Positions 14,538 to 19,068 of a stretch of 24,170 nucleotides of DNA are shown piece after piece. The DNA is taken from positions 432 to 24,601 of the forward strand of contig DDSQ01000161.1 in the NCBI GenBank assembly GCA_002343845.1, given 5' to 3'. A model generated the notes under the pieces. It saw only the letters and a list, made by a program, of their open reading frames with translations. It was not told where the DNA came from and searched no databases. The DNA comes from Planctomycetes bacterium UBA2386. GTDB taxonomy: Bacteria > Planctomycetota > UBA1135 > UBA2386. Position 1 is the first letter of the stretch, and every line of letters starts with the position of its first letter. The translations under genes and the position numbers were made by a program.

Positions 14538-15635
14538 ATGCCGAACGCGCACTCCGTCCCGGCCCGCCCGCGCAAGACGGTGCTCGTGCTCGGCGGCGGC
14601 GGCATGCGCGGCTTCTGCCACATCGGCATCGTTCGCGCGATCGAACGCCTCGGCATCCCGATCGACGAAGTCATCGGCACCAGCATGGGGGCGGTGATGG
14701 CGGGCCTGTTCGCGGCCGGGCGCGACAGCCACGAGATGGAAGTCGCCGCGCGCGAGATCTCGCTGAAGGACTACTTCCGGCTCAACCTGCTGAAGTTCCT
14801 GGTGCGCGGCTACCGGCACGCGTCGGTCTACAAGGGCCGCACGTTCCACGAGCTGCTGCGGAAGTGGCTGCCGCACGGGCGCTTCGCCGACCTGAAGAAG
14901 CCGTTCTTCTGCAACGCGCTGTCGTTGACCACCGGCGCCTCGCGGTTCTTCGGCATGCCCGGCGCCGTCGACGTGCCGGTCGCCGACGCGGTCTACGCCA
15001 GTGCCTGCCTGCCGACGATCTTCGAGCCGCTGCCGATCGGCGGCGACTGGTTCGTCGACGGCGGCATGACCGAGACGCTCGGCCTGCGCATCGCCAAGGC
15101 GCGCGGCGCGGACCTGGTGATCGCGGTCGATCTGTCGCACCGCGACATGCACACGCCGCGGTCGTACCGGGCGAGCCTGCCGCACATCCTGTTCCAGACC
15201 TACGAGGTGATGGGGCAGGCGCTCAACGAGCACAACCTGCACCGCTACGTCGACGAACGCACCGTCGTGATCAAGCCGATGGTGAGCCACCTCGGCCTGC
15301 TCGACATGCCGGACGTGCGCGAGATCGTGCGGATCGGCGAACGGCAGGCGATCGAGGTGCTGGCCACACATCCGCTGACCCGCTGGCTGTGCGACGCCGC
15401 CGTCGTCGCCGACGTCGACCGCGGTGCTGGCGCTGTTCGCGACCATGTGGCGCTGCACGTCGACATGAACGCCTGCATCCACTGCGGCATCTGTGCGGCG
15501 ACGTGCGCCACCGCGGGCTTCGCGGCCGTGCCGCTCGGCGACGTGGTGCGCAAGCTGCACAACTACGAGTGCACGCGCGACATGGCCTGCGAACGCAACT
15601 GCCCGACCGGCGCGATCCGCCTGGGCAATCTGTAG
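14538..15635 (+). CDS. Patatin-like phospholipase fused to a ferredoxin-like Fe-S domain
   Basis: The product is 365 residues from the ATG at 14538. Residues ~13-290 are a patatin-like esterase of the RssA type: oxyanion loop GGGGMRG (19-25), nucleophile S49 in GTSMG, and catalytic D174 in VDGGM. After a short linker the last ~57 residues carry a ferredoxin motif, C313-x2-C316-x2-C319-x3-C323, followed by C345-x5-C351-x3-C355-P, ending PTGAIRLGNL as bacterial 2[4Fe-4S] ferredoxins do. The first motif is complete; the second has three cysteines instead of four, so a 7Fe or single-cluster protein is possible. The frame is continuous through the junction. Patatins hydrolyse lipid acyl esters; an electron-carrying domain on one is unusual and its purpose is unknown. 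No signal peptide is visible. The gene diverges from the CoA ligase operon and converges on the Toprim gene. Confidence 0.85.
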   Translation: MPNAHSVPARPRKTVLVLGGGGMRGFCHIGIVRAIERLGIPIDEVIGTSMGAVMAGLFAAGRDSHEMEVAAREISLKDYFRLNLLKFLVRGYRHASVYKGRTFHELLRKWLPHGRFADLKKPFFCNALSLTTGASRFFGMPGAVDVPVADAVYASACLPTIFEPLPIGGDWFVDGGMTETLGLRIAKARGADLVIAVDLSHRDMHTPRSYRASLPHILFQTYEVMGQALNEHNLHRYVDERTVVIKPMVSHLGLLDMPDVREIVRIGERQAIEVLATHPLTRWLCDAAVVADVDRGAGAVRDHVALHVDMNACIHCGICAATCATAGFAAVPLGDVVRKLHNYECTRDMACERNCPTGAIRLGNL

Positions 15636-15642
15636 GGCGCGG

Positions 15643-16296
15643 TTACCGGAGGCCCTCGAGGAAGGCTCGTAGCGGCGCGAATGCGGCGGCGCCCAGGTCG
15701 AAGCGATTGGCGCGCGCGCCGGGCCCGAGCCGCGGGTCTTCGTCGTTCTCGATCGCGAGCAGCGACCCGATCAGGCCCTTGTGTAGGCTCTTCGGCGTCG
15801 AGCCGGCCGACTTCATGCAGCGATGGAAGGTCTCGATGCACGCGCGCTTGGCGGCGTTCTGCGGGTGGGCCGCCCACGCGCTCCAGACCAGGGTCTCGAG
15901 TTCGCCGACGTCTTCGTCGCCGCCGCCGGGAACGACGAAGAACCCGACCTTCGCCTTGGACCGCGACGCCTTCCAGGAGCCGTCTACGCCCAGGTCGGCT
16001 CCGGTCGTCCGCGTGAGCAGGTTGGCGAGGCTGCGGCGTGTGTCGGTGGGTGCAGCATCGGCGTCGATGAGGACGCCGATCGCCTTGGCGCGCGCTAAGC
16101 GCTCGGGGTCGATCCAGACCTCGATCTCCTTCAGCAGTTCCGTCTTGCTCTTGCACTCCTTGATGAAGCACGAGCCCGGTTCTCCGAGTCGCGGGAACCC
16201 CATGTGTTCGAGCAGTTCGGCCGCGAAGTGGAGATCGCTGTACCCCTCGACCAACAGGAAGCGATCGTGGTCCTCCTCCCGGGGACGTCCTCTCAT
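15643..16296 (-). CDS. DUF3226 Toprim-like protein, partner of the adjacent ATPase
   Basis: The product is 217 residues, with its ATG overlapping the TGA of the ATPase gene (ATGA). The Toprim-like fold shows as FLLVEGYSD (13-21, with E17 as the conserved acid and D21 after it), GVLIDAD (74-80, the D78-x-D80 pair) and a following FFVVPGGGDEDVGELETLV (119-137) where DUF3226 proteins have a strand, a small-residue loop and an acidic G-x-LE helix. The C-terminal FD...FAPLRAFLEGL is also typical of that family. In OLD-family systems a Toprim nuclease is joined to or paired with an ABC-type ATPase, and acidic residues like these bind the metal for DNA cutting. A nuclease role is therefore likely but inferred. 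Its stop is seven bases from that of the convergent patatin-ferredoxin gene. Confidence 0.8.
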   Translation of the reverse strand: MRGRPREEDHDRFLLVEGYSDLHFAAELLEHMGFPRLGEPGSCFIKECKSKTELLKEIEVWIDPERLARAKAIGVLIDADAAPTDTRRSLANLLTRTTGADLGVDGSWKASRSKAKVGFFVVPGGGDEDVGELETLVWSAWAAHPQNAAKRACIETFHRCMKSAGSTPKSLHKGLIGSLLAIENDEDPRLGPGARANRFDLGAAAFAPLRAFLEGLR

Positions 16297-17270
16297 CGCA
16301 GGTCGACGTCGCCTTGGATCGCCGCCTCGATCAGGCTGCGGTCGAGCACCCGGCCCTGGACATCGAGCGGCTTGTCGGTCTCCGAACGGAAGAGCTGCAC
16401 GATGCTGAAATCGTAGTCTGGCTCAGTGGACATGGCTTCGTGCGCTGCTTCGACGCACTCGTAGCTGTGCGTCGTGACGAAGACCTGCACGCCGCGGTCG
16501 CGCGCGACGGTGGCGATTCCCCGCCAGAGTTGAGGCAGGAGCGAGTAGTGCAGGCCGTTCTCGACCTCGTCGACGAGGCAGACATCAGTCTTCTGCGCAA
16601 GCAGCTCCGAGAAGAGGGCGACCAGTCGACTCATGCCATGACCTGCCTGCGCCAGTGGCATGCGCTCGGAGAGCCCGAGGTCCAACTCGATGAAGGGCGC
16701 TTCTCCTTGCGGAGCCCGGACGCGGACCTTCTTCAACCGCGGGTCGACTCTGCGGAGCATGTCCTCCATGCTCTCCTCGCCGTCCTTGCGGCTCAGGACG
16801 AGATCCAGCAGTTGTGTGAGGGCATCCTGCGTTCGCGGCCCCAGCGACACGACGCGACAGTTCAGTTGCGCGAAGTTGCGACCAACCGCCATCTCGAATG
16901 CTGGCGTGTCGACGTGCTTGACCCCGTGTAGCCATGGCCCACCCTTGCTCAAACGGTGTAGAGGACCCGCCATGAGAACTCGGCTCTCGGAGGGTTCACG
17001 CAGGATCCATGCCTCATCCCGCGTGCCGTCCCGCACGAGCCAGCGGAAGTAGTCACGCTCCGTGTTCGGGGGCTGCGTTCGCAGTTGTCTCGGGATCTCG
17101 TTGTGGAGGAGCGGCGGCTGGCACGACAGGAAGATCGCCTCCAGCAGCGACGTCTTCCCGCAGTTGTTCTTGCCGACGATCAGATTGACTCGCCTGAGCC
17201 CATCTAGCTCGAGCTTCTCGAACCCGCGGAAGTTCCTGACCACTAGCTTGCGGATCACGCTCGCGAACAT
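16293..17270 (-). CDS. AAA_15/AAA_21-type (OLD/RecF-like) ATPase
   Basis: The product is 325 residues. I choose the ATG at 17270 because the protein then begins IRKLVVRNFRGFEKLEL, the standard N-terminus of this class; an ATG at 17321 adds 17 residues without motif. Walker A is G33-KNNCGKTS-41, an ABC-signature-like LAQAGHGMSRLV is at 206-217, Walker B is VCLVDEVENGLH (230-241) with D234 and E235, and the H-loop is VTTHSYE with H268. RecF/SMC-type ATPases with these features bind DNA and dimerise on ATP. The chain is too short to hold its own Toprim domain, which instead follows as the overlapping next gene. Together they look like a split OLD-type or PARIS-like defence module. The GC content is lower than in flanking genes (55-58% in two 60-base samples against 73% in the efflux ATPase gene), which suggests recent acquisition. 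Confidence 0.85.
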   Translation of the reverse strand: MFASVIRKLVVRNFRGFEKLELDGLRRVNLIVGKNNCGKTSLLEAIFLSCQPPLLHNEIPRQLRTQPPNTERDYFRWLVRDGTRDEAWILREPSESRVLMAGPLHRLSKGGPWLHGVKHVDTPAFEMAVGRNFAQLNCRVVSLGPRTQDALTQLLDLVLSRKDGEESMEDMLRRVDPRLKKVRVRAPQGEAPFIELDLGLSERMPLAQAGHGMSRLVALFSELLAQKTDVCLVDEVENGLHYSLLPQLWRGIATVARDRGVQVFVTTHSYECVEAAHEAMSTEPDYDFSIVQLFRSETDKPLDVQGRVLDRSLIEAAIQGDVDLR

Positions 17271-17598
17271 AGCGACGGCGGCGCTCCCGCTGAAGTCGTA
17301 GCTCCTGGGGCTGGCGGTCATGCTGGATGGGTCCGGAGCGCGGGGAAACTCGTCAAGTCGATGGGGCACGCGCGCGTCCGGGGCCATCGTGCGAGACGGG
17401 CTCTCCATGGAAGTGCGCGACCGGGGGTAGCCGTAGGTGCGGCCCAAGGAACAGGCGGCGTTCGTGTTGACGAGGCGCTGTTCCTCGCCGACCGCTCGCG
17501 CGTGACGATGCGTCGTTGGAAAATACCCACGACCGCGCACGGATTGCGCCGGCGATCGGCCACACTGCGCCCGCCACGCGTCCGCCCGCCCGCCCCGC
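17271..17598. other. Intergenic region between the defence-like module and the efflux operon
   Basis: These 328 bases lie between divergent genes. Open frames exist on both strands, but none shows a recognisable domain, signal peptide or ribosome site, and they encode Arg/Pro-rich products typical of non-coding high-GC DNA. A TTGACG lies near 17355 on the minus strand and another near 17468 on the plus strand, but neither has a matching -10 element at 16-18 bases. Promoters for both operons should be here. The AT-rich GGAAAATACC near 17519-17528 is the most distinctive spot. Confidence 0.4.
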
Positions 17599-19068
17599 AT
17601 GAAGCGTCGAACCATCGTCCTGCTCGTCCTCGGCCTGTCCGTCGCCGGCCTCGTCACCTGGCAGTCGCTGCGGCCGACGCCGCCGATCCTGGTGGTGACG
17701 GCGAAGGTCGAACGCCTGCCGGCGCTGCGTTCGATCGTGTCGGCGACCGGCGAGATCCGCGCCAAGGAGTTCGTCGACATCCAGGCCGAGGTCGCCGGCC
17801 TGATCACCGAACTGCACGTGCGCGAGGGCGGCAGCGTGCAGAAGGGCGACGTTCTGCTGCGGCTCGACGACCTGCAGCTCAAGGCCGAACAGGACGGCGT
17901 GCGCGCGCAGGTGGGAGCCGGTGAAGCGGACGTGCGCAGCGGGGACGTCGGCGTCGCCACCGCCGAGGCCAATCTGGCCGCCGACGACACGGCGCTCGCG
18001 AACGCCCGCCTCGAGGCCGAACAGGCGGCGACCTCGCGCGACCGCGCCAAGGCGTCGTTCGCGCGCAAGAAGGAACTGCACGACCAGCAGCTGATCGGCA
18101 GCGAGGAATTCGAGGTGGCGGCGGCCGAGGCCCGGCTCGCCGAGCAGCGCTGGCAGTGGAACGAGGCGCGCATCCGCCAGGCGGAGTCGAGCGTCGCGGC
18201 CGGGCGCACGCGGGTCGACGCGGCCAAGGCCCAGCGCGACGCGGCGTGCCGGCGGCTCGAAGCGGTGCAGGCGTCGCTCGCCCGCGCCACCGACATGGTC
18301 GGCAAGACGACGCTGCGCGCGCCGCTGTCGGGGTTGATCACCAAGCTCAACGTCGAGAAGGGCGAACGCGCGGTACCCGGCATCCAGAGCAACCCGATCG
18401 CGACGTTGATGACGATCGCCGACATGTCGGTCATCGAGGCCGAGATCCGGGTCGCCGAGGCGGACATCGTCGACGTGTCGCTCGGAGCTCCCGCCGAAGT
18501 CGAGGTCGACGCGATGCGCGACGTGAAGTTCGCCGGTGTCGTGACCGAGATCGGCCAGAGCCCGATCCAGAACACGCAGTCGGGCAACACCCAGAGCCAG
18601 GACGGCAAGGAGTTCAAGGTGGTCGTGCGGCTGACGTCGCCGCCGCCGACGCTGCGGCCGGGCTTCACGGCGACGGCCGAGATCGTCACGGCCACGCGCA
18701 GCGACGTGCTGGTGATCCCGTTCCAGGCGCAGACCGCGCGCGAGGTCGAAGTCGACGCCGCGGGCCGCTACGTGCCGCCGCCAGAACCGGAGCCCGACGC
18801 GATCGAGGTGCCGTTGACCGCGGCCGAGCGCGCGAAACGAAAGGAGCTGAAGGGCGTGTTCGTGCGGCGCGATGGGCGCGCTCGCTTCGTGCCGGCCGAG
18901 TTCGGCGTGGTCGGCGAGACGATGGACGTCGAGGTGGTGTCGGGCCTGCAGCAGGACGACGAGGTCATCAGCGGCCCGTACCAGGTGCTGCGCACGTTGA
19001 AGGAGTGGGACCGGGTCGCGCTCGATCCGAAGCGCATGCAGAACGCGGGCGCGGGCAGCCAGCGATGA
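17599..19068 (+). CDS. HlyD/MacA-type periplasmic adaptor of an ABC efflux system
   Basis: The product is 489 residues. An N-terminal membrane anchor ([14 protein letters not shown], 6-19) is followed by the first half of the barrel-sandwich (biotinyl-lipoyl-like) domain with [18 protein letters not shown] and [18 protein letters not shown] (52-91), a long Ala/Glu/Arg-rich coiled-coil hairpin (~93-235), the second lipoyl half ([18 protein letters not shown], 239-256), a beta-barrel (~275-375) and a membrane-proximal domain. Residues ~383-418 are an unusual Pro/Glu/Lys-rich insertion in that last domain. Adaptors of this family link an inner membrane MacB-type transporter to an outer membrane channel; no TolC-like gene is in the window. 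Its TGA overlaps the ATG of the ATPase gene. Confidence 0.9.

Follow-up and report, generated by a model that had tools for sequence, protein, structure and literature searches.

Do two overlapping genes of a planctomycete form an immune system, and if so, of which kind? The question is raised by a stretch of 24,170 nucleotides from Planctomycetes bacterium UBA2386 (GenBank assembly GCA_002343845.1, contig DDSQ01000161.1, positions 432 to 24,601 of the forward strand), which we refer to as the window and on whose minus strand a gene for an ATPase is followed by a gene for a small protein of the Pfam family DUF3226. Our analysis makes it probable that the two genes form a split immune module of OLD type, of the kind that PADLOC lists as candidate PDC-M38 (in which PDC presumably stands for 'phage defence candidate'). 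Assignment to the split OLD kind is supported by profile matches, predicted structure, correspondence of active-site residues, pairing, scattered occurrence, and presence on small plasmids. Since this designation comes from PADLOC, pairs of this sort already figure among listed candidates; the search of defence-system models that the original prediction for this locus had proposed as a check returns PDC-M38 for both genes.

The two proteins and the systems they resemble

The genes and the residues on which the argument turns are the following:

16293..17270, minus strand: ATPase gene (AAA_15/OLD-type ATP-binding cassette, ABC), AbiLi- and PDC-M38A-like, 325 amino acids
17148..17174, minus strand: Walker A motif GKNNCGKTS, residues 33-41, of which 33, 35, 36, 38, 39, and 40 are invariant (42/42)
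16566..16571, minus strand: Walker B acids D234/E235, invariant (42/42)
16467..16469, minus strand: H-loop H268, invariant (42/42)
16296..16304, minus strand: C-terminal tail D-L-R (acidic-x-Arg) of the ATPase, residues 323-325, with R325 invariant (42/42)
15643..16296, minus strand: gene for the DUF3226 Toprim-like protein, PDC-M38B-like, 217 amino acids
16293..16296, minus strand: ATGA overlap in the sequence, the DUF3226 start lying over the ATPase stop
16234..16248, minus strand: Toprim motif 1, E17 to D21, both invariant (50/50), equivalent to E400/E404 of Bp OLD
16057..16065, minus strand: Toprim DxD, D78/D80, both invariant (50/50), equivalent to D455/D457 of Bp OLD
15895..15903, minus strand: E132-L-E134, both glutamates invariant (50/50), E134 equivalent to the metal-B ligand E508 of Bp OLD
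15778..15780, minus strand: K173, invariant (50/50), equivalent to the catalytic K562 of Bp OLD

The layout first described for this locus, two minus-strand genes of 325 and 217 codons joined by ATGA, is borne out, and the four shared bases suggest that the genes are translationally coupled. Pfam AAA_15 matches the ATPase at 84.6 bits (E = 1.4e-23; cut-off 32.1), and its structure model (predicted local distance difference test, pLDDT, 92.4) has an SMC/Rad50/PtuA-type ABC head. PADLOC scores, considered for the best 25 of 139 families, place AbiLi (5.3e-49) ahead of PDC-M38A (2.6e-45; 153.6 bits), AriA (1.1e-24), and GajA (2.8e-19); no NCBIfam model reaches its cut-off among the 25 matches listed. 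Throughout an alignment of 42 proteins (the window ATPase with 41 drawn from a list of 119 further relatives), K39, D234, E235, and H268 are invariant, and with AAA_15 above its cut-off, the Walker A, Walker B, and H-loop positions named in the original prediction prove exact and not a product of chance. Conservation extends to the last residues: an acidic-x-Arg tail ends the chain in 34/34 ATPases whose C-termini we inspected (the window protein and rows from L001-L040, plasmid proteins included), with one extra residue after it in L006, L008, and L015.

The small protein matches DUF3226 at 71.6 bits (E = 1e-19; cut-off 27), a weak DUF711 row being the only other Pfam match at E ≤ 1. Pfam describes DUF3226 as a 'protein of unknown function'. 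The structure model (pLDDT 95.7) resembles PH0156 and the Toprim region of class-2 OLD proteins. The Toprim acids E17, D78, and D80 had been located exactly, and they are invariant in an alignment of 50 (the window protein and 49 of the 120 relatives listed). Matched by order, motif, and fold, without superposition of coordinates, E17, D21, D78, D80, E134, and K173 are the counterparts of the two-metal site residues of Bp OLD and of its lysine. Two-metal DNA cleavage is described for Bp OLD, and the two-metal Toprim set of the OLD family (ExxxE/D, DxD, a helical-domain E, and K) is complete in the DUF3226 protein. Two PDC-M38B models match the protein in PADLOC (4e-9 and 1.6e-6), with no other family below 1e-3, and NCBIfam gives no match. 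As a separate observation, a DUF3226 match above cut-off was found in Methanocaldococcus jannaschii, included as a control genome, and the family therefore extends to archaea.

Background on published systems is taken here and below from excerpts of PMC12409363, PMC6755086, PMC9122126, PMC10568477, PMC12796447, PMC10952713, PMC10440598, and PMC12111858; the literature searched yielded no publication using either name, DUF3226 or PDC-M38, and nothing recognisably relevant on the small plasmids described below. Like PDC-M38, the window pair has matches to both subunit models in adjacent genes, which is how we judged membership, without PADLOC's own score and coverage rules; it differs in that its B match is partial and weak, and because of this the pair would fit PDC-M38 as a divergent branch. 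Split OLD proteins are termed class 4, with PARIS (AriA and AriB) defining the class. The window pair resembles PARIS in keeping ATPase and Toprim on separate genes and in its AriA match; our A3 profile also reaches the AriB structure 8ux9, though not significantly (E = 0.97). The ATPase passes the AAA_15/AAA_21 part of the PARIS detection rule (84.6 and 71.4 bits against thresholds of 32 and 27). However, the published rule also demands a DUF4435 partner at 27 bits or more, and the Pfam scan of the DUF3226 protein (E ≤ 1) contains no DUF4435. AbiL is similar in consisting of two genes, for an ATPase (AbiLi, the model that scores best here) and a Toprim-like partner, but its AbiLii is RloB-like, and no AbiLii or RloB model matches the DUF3226 protein at E ≤ 1 (HMMER filters drop most matches above 0.1). 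OLD proteins of classes 1-3, GajA, and the retron-Eco8 effector belong to the same ATPase superfamily, and the two-metal Toprim residues of class 2 are shared as well. Yet OLD classes 1-3 are single chains where the window has two overlapping open reading frames (ORFs), and the ten window ORFs scanned with Pfam include neither a GajB-like helicase nor a reverse transcriptase, as would accompany GajA or the retron effector. By the tests made, the lack of DUF4435 sets the pair apart from PARIS, the lack of any AbiLii or RloB match from AbiL, and its division into two chains from OLD class 1-3. What the original prediction called a split OLD/PARIS-like module holds as regards a divided ATPase and Toprim of OLD kind, with the correction that the ATPase lies nearer AbiLi than AriA.

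Among more distant comparisons, PH0156 of Pyrococcus horikoshii has a solved structure (2p62) at 14% identity under the record title 'hypothetical protein', and the MADS models in PADLOC give 1.1e-13 for mad3 and 0.026 for mad4. IbfA, a defence protein that joins ATPase and Toprim and is encoded on a Salmonella plasmid, was weighed as a possible tested member of the group and ruled out because it is a single chain.

Pairing, distribution and plasmid carriage

The DUF3226 gene directly follows the ATPase gene at all examined loci that have enough flanking sequence (34/34), which come from enterobacterial plasmids as well as from several phyla; three weaker matches of the planctomycete sample and the matches of the verrucomicrobial sample lie outside this count. 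A genome scan gave 18 loci, with the ATPase gene directly upstream on the same strand in all 17 that can be judged, L018 being cut by a contig end. A planctomycete search gave 15, of which 4 repeat earlier ones and 10 of the 11 new ones have the ATPase; in the remaining one the DUF3226 gene stops 53 bases from the end of its contig. All three plasmids counted (part of the 34) show the same adjacency. Four of 18 genomes searched (G002, G008, G015, and G016) carry a second, distant DUF3226 gene with a higher Pfam score, again adjoining an ATPase gene.

Some loci look less than complete. The DUF3226 match is partial or in pieces in L015, L016, and L017 (3/17 loci) beside a nearly full-length ATPase, which suggests decay or assembly error. 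Among the relatives listed, the closest ATPase (P0124, on an 83,820-base contig; compared with P0004) is 84% identical, and for DUF3226 the highest identity, the window protein itself set aside, is 53%; given these two figures, the partner of P0124 is missing, shortened past the length limits of the search, or strongly diverged.

The distribution of the pair is sporadic and non-core. A close-subfamily model of DUF3226 at E ≤ 0.001 matches in 16/294 genomes of the planctomycete phylum and 9/240 of the verrucomicrobial phylum, figures that are rough because both samples include known carriers and only part of the candidates was scored per genome; the pair is not the stable core pair at one locus throughout the phylum that the original prediction had named as counting against it. 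In trees of both subunits (the A1 tree without the short DUF3226 rows L015, L016, and L017; L020 in the A2 tree only), the window joins the planctomycete rows L001 and L002 on a supported branch. Elsewhere phylum labels are mixed and few branches are supported, and the clustering of phylum labels is equalled by about 1 in 6 shuffles (34 and 31 of 200); the trees therefore show neither vertical nor horizontal descent.

Some relatives of the pair are carried on small plasmids. The four genes listed for a Salmonella plasmid of 3793 bases are the pair, mobA, and rop, and those listed for a Klebsiella ColRNAI plasmid of 4167 bases are the pair (its ATPase split over the record start), rop, and a helix-turn-helix gene. 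With the Klebsiella DUF3226 protein as query, 144 plasmid records matched, 138 of them from Klebsiella. The whole pair is present in all four annotated plasmid stretches read, the fourth being a large conjugative plasmid with the Klebsiella form; on a Plesiomonas plasmid, it lies near phage tail genes. When the Salmonella pair was used as query in a DNA search, the reach of which is limited to relatives with at least some 65-70% identity, it was found in 9/5426 Escherichia coli genomes, at 13 places, all on plasmids.

The locus and its neighbours

Comparison with two genomes of the planctomycete phylum (G001 and G141), in which the neighbouring patatin of the window is about 81% identical, delimits one further feature:

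15636..17588, strand not assigned: segment holding the pair, ends approximate, to which the flanks in the two nearest genomes show no homology

On the left, homology stops at 15635 in the comparison with G001 and, depending on the search setting, at 15619-15669 in that with G141; to the right of the pair, it resumes at 17593 and 17589, respectively. In both genomes the left and right blocks are on separate contigs with differing neighbours (that of G141 ends 1.4 kb past the patatin), and so the pair lies at a breakpoint, not at a proven empty site. A clean insertion was considered and not demonstrated, no empty site being seen in G001 or G141. The nearest genome with the pair carries it at another place than the window does. 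No tRNA gene was found in the window, and the repeats listed around the pair (within 15500-17750) are short, with none flanking it. The G+C content of the pair segment (15643-17270) is 65.2%, compared with 70.9% for the whole window, and falls below that of all 1929 segments of equal length lying clear of the pair (lowest 67.4%). The lower value noted originally is thus correct, but taken alone, it is weak evidence of acquisition. The patatin itself (14541-15635) is a patatin-like phospholipase with a C-terminal 4Fe-4S ferredoxin-like domain.

From crude gene calls around all 17 loci, 40 neighbouring ORFs were examined, 6 of which, in 4 loci, are of defence or toxin-antitoxin type by Pfam (counted without a background rate). 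In L009 (6213-13957), the pair has on one side a type III restriction-modification methyltransferase gene, which overlaps the start of the ATPase gene, and on the other a gene of ResIII type for which PADLOC gives no match at 1e-5, an arrangement that looks like a pair embedded in a restriction-modification operon. The pair of L014 is directly behind an MmeI-type enzyme, an OLD-like AAA protein follows that of L013, and two PIN-domain genes are near that of L016. In two Polyangium genomes (L011 and L017), a formyltransferase gene beside the pair is a sign of a shared site.

Proposed mode of action and competing explanations

By analogy, the pair would act like PARIS, AbiL, and OLD. In PARIS, AriA hexamers are described as retaining the tRNase AriB until they detect a phage protein, and AbiL works by abortive infection. 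The window ATPase may similarly multimerise, bind, and restrain the predicted DUF3226 nuclease, until a phage- or plasmid-derived trigger frees or activates it; the nuclease would then cut nucleic acid, either DNA (as in class-2 OLD) or tRNA (as AriB does), and this would halt the infection, probably at the cell's expense. The acidic-x-Arg tail, which planctomycete ATPases share with those of enterobacterial plasmids even though the identity of their partners is only about 20%, could be a docking element. More speculatively, and on balance we doubt it, DUF3226 might be a third, structurally complete OLD-type Toprim effector of split immunity beside DUF4435 (PARIS) and RloB (AbiL), with the conserved tail as a tether or active-site plug that silences the nuclease until infection.

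Several observations weigh against an immune module. Thirty-four of the 40 neighbouring ORFs are of neither defence nor toxin-antitoxin type; 24 of them fall in other, mainly housekeeping, families, and the other 10 have no match. Of the ten window ORFs scanned, five match beta-oxidation, M28 peptidase, patatin, or HlyD families, one an ABC transporter family, and four have no match, with no other defence gene among the ten. MOB-suite classes 135/144 of the plasmid records as non-mobilizable; phage records yielded no relative, and viral contigs none of the close subfamily. The best PDC-M38B match is modest and spans only residues 11-137 of 217, and D21 and D80 are substituted in some members of the wider DUF3226 family. 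The DUF3226 model is Toprim-like, a fold whose absence the original prediction had named as telling against it, though Foldseek used by itself found nothing at E ≤ 0.001 and had a caspase as its top row. Finally, the NetFlax authors, in the excerpt used, saw no convincing AlphaFold2 interface for AAA/toxin pairs.

The same evidence bears on three other explanations. That the ATPase neutralises a DUF3226 nuclease toxin in a toxin-antitoxin or plasmid-addiction pair, which chiefly stabilises its carrier element with phage defence secondary, we consider rather unlikely: the small plasmids list few further genes, AAA-neutralised pairs with TOPRIM_OLD partners are on record, and PIN-domain genes lie near the L016 pair, but restriction-modification genes adjoin the pair in L009 and L014, and the window pair and many relatives sit beside metabolic or housekeeping genes, with no plasmid sign in the ORFs scanned. 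The two roles also overlap, AbiL-type systems being both. Genome maintenance by a DNA-repair or recombination pair of RecF/Rad50 kind would suit the SMC/Rad50-like head, and the archaeal class-5 OLD protein Cran1 is described as a cell-cycle protein with apparently no part in defence; against this, the pair is sporadic, is carried on small plasmids, and is differently placed in the nearest carrier genome, from which it follows that its function is not core, and we regard such a role as improbable. Least probable, in our judgment, is a nuclease directed at plasmids or mobile elements generally instead of phages. The trigger might be something other than a phage, and Wadjet JetD is said in a review of OLD proteins to resemble the OLD Toprim domain, yet with a DUF3226 relative in so many plasmid records, and the whole pair in the stretches read, such a nuclease would need to spare its own carrier.

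The split OLD-type immune module thus remains our preferred explanation, and we regard the pair as a genuine defence candidate of split-OLD type, conserved and accessory, of a kind that PADLOC has already catalogued. Despite its label, DUF3226 combines the residue set of an OLD-type nuclease with an AbiLi-like ATPase gene at each of the 34 loci examined. If the assignment is true, it would supply a function for a family whose relatives occur in several environmental phyla and in the 144 plasmid records, mostly of Klebsiella; split OLD systems would gain one more interchangeable effector, and the restraint of different Toprim nucleases by one kind of ATPase would become directly testable.
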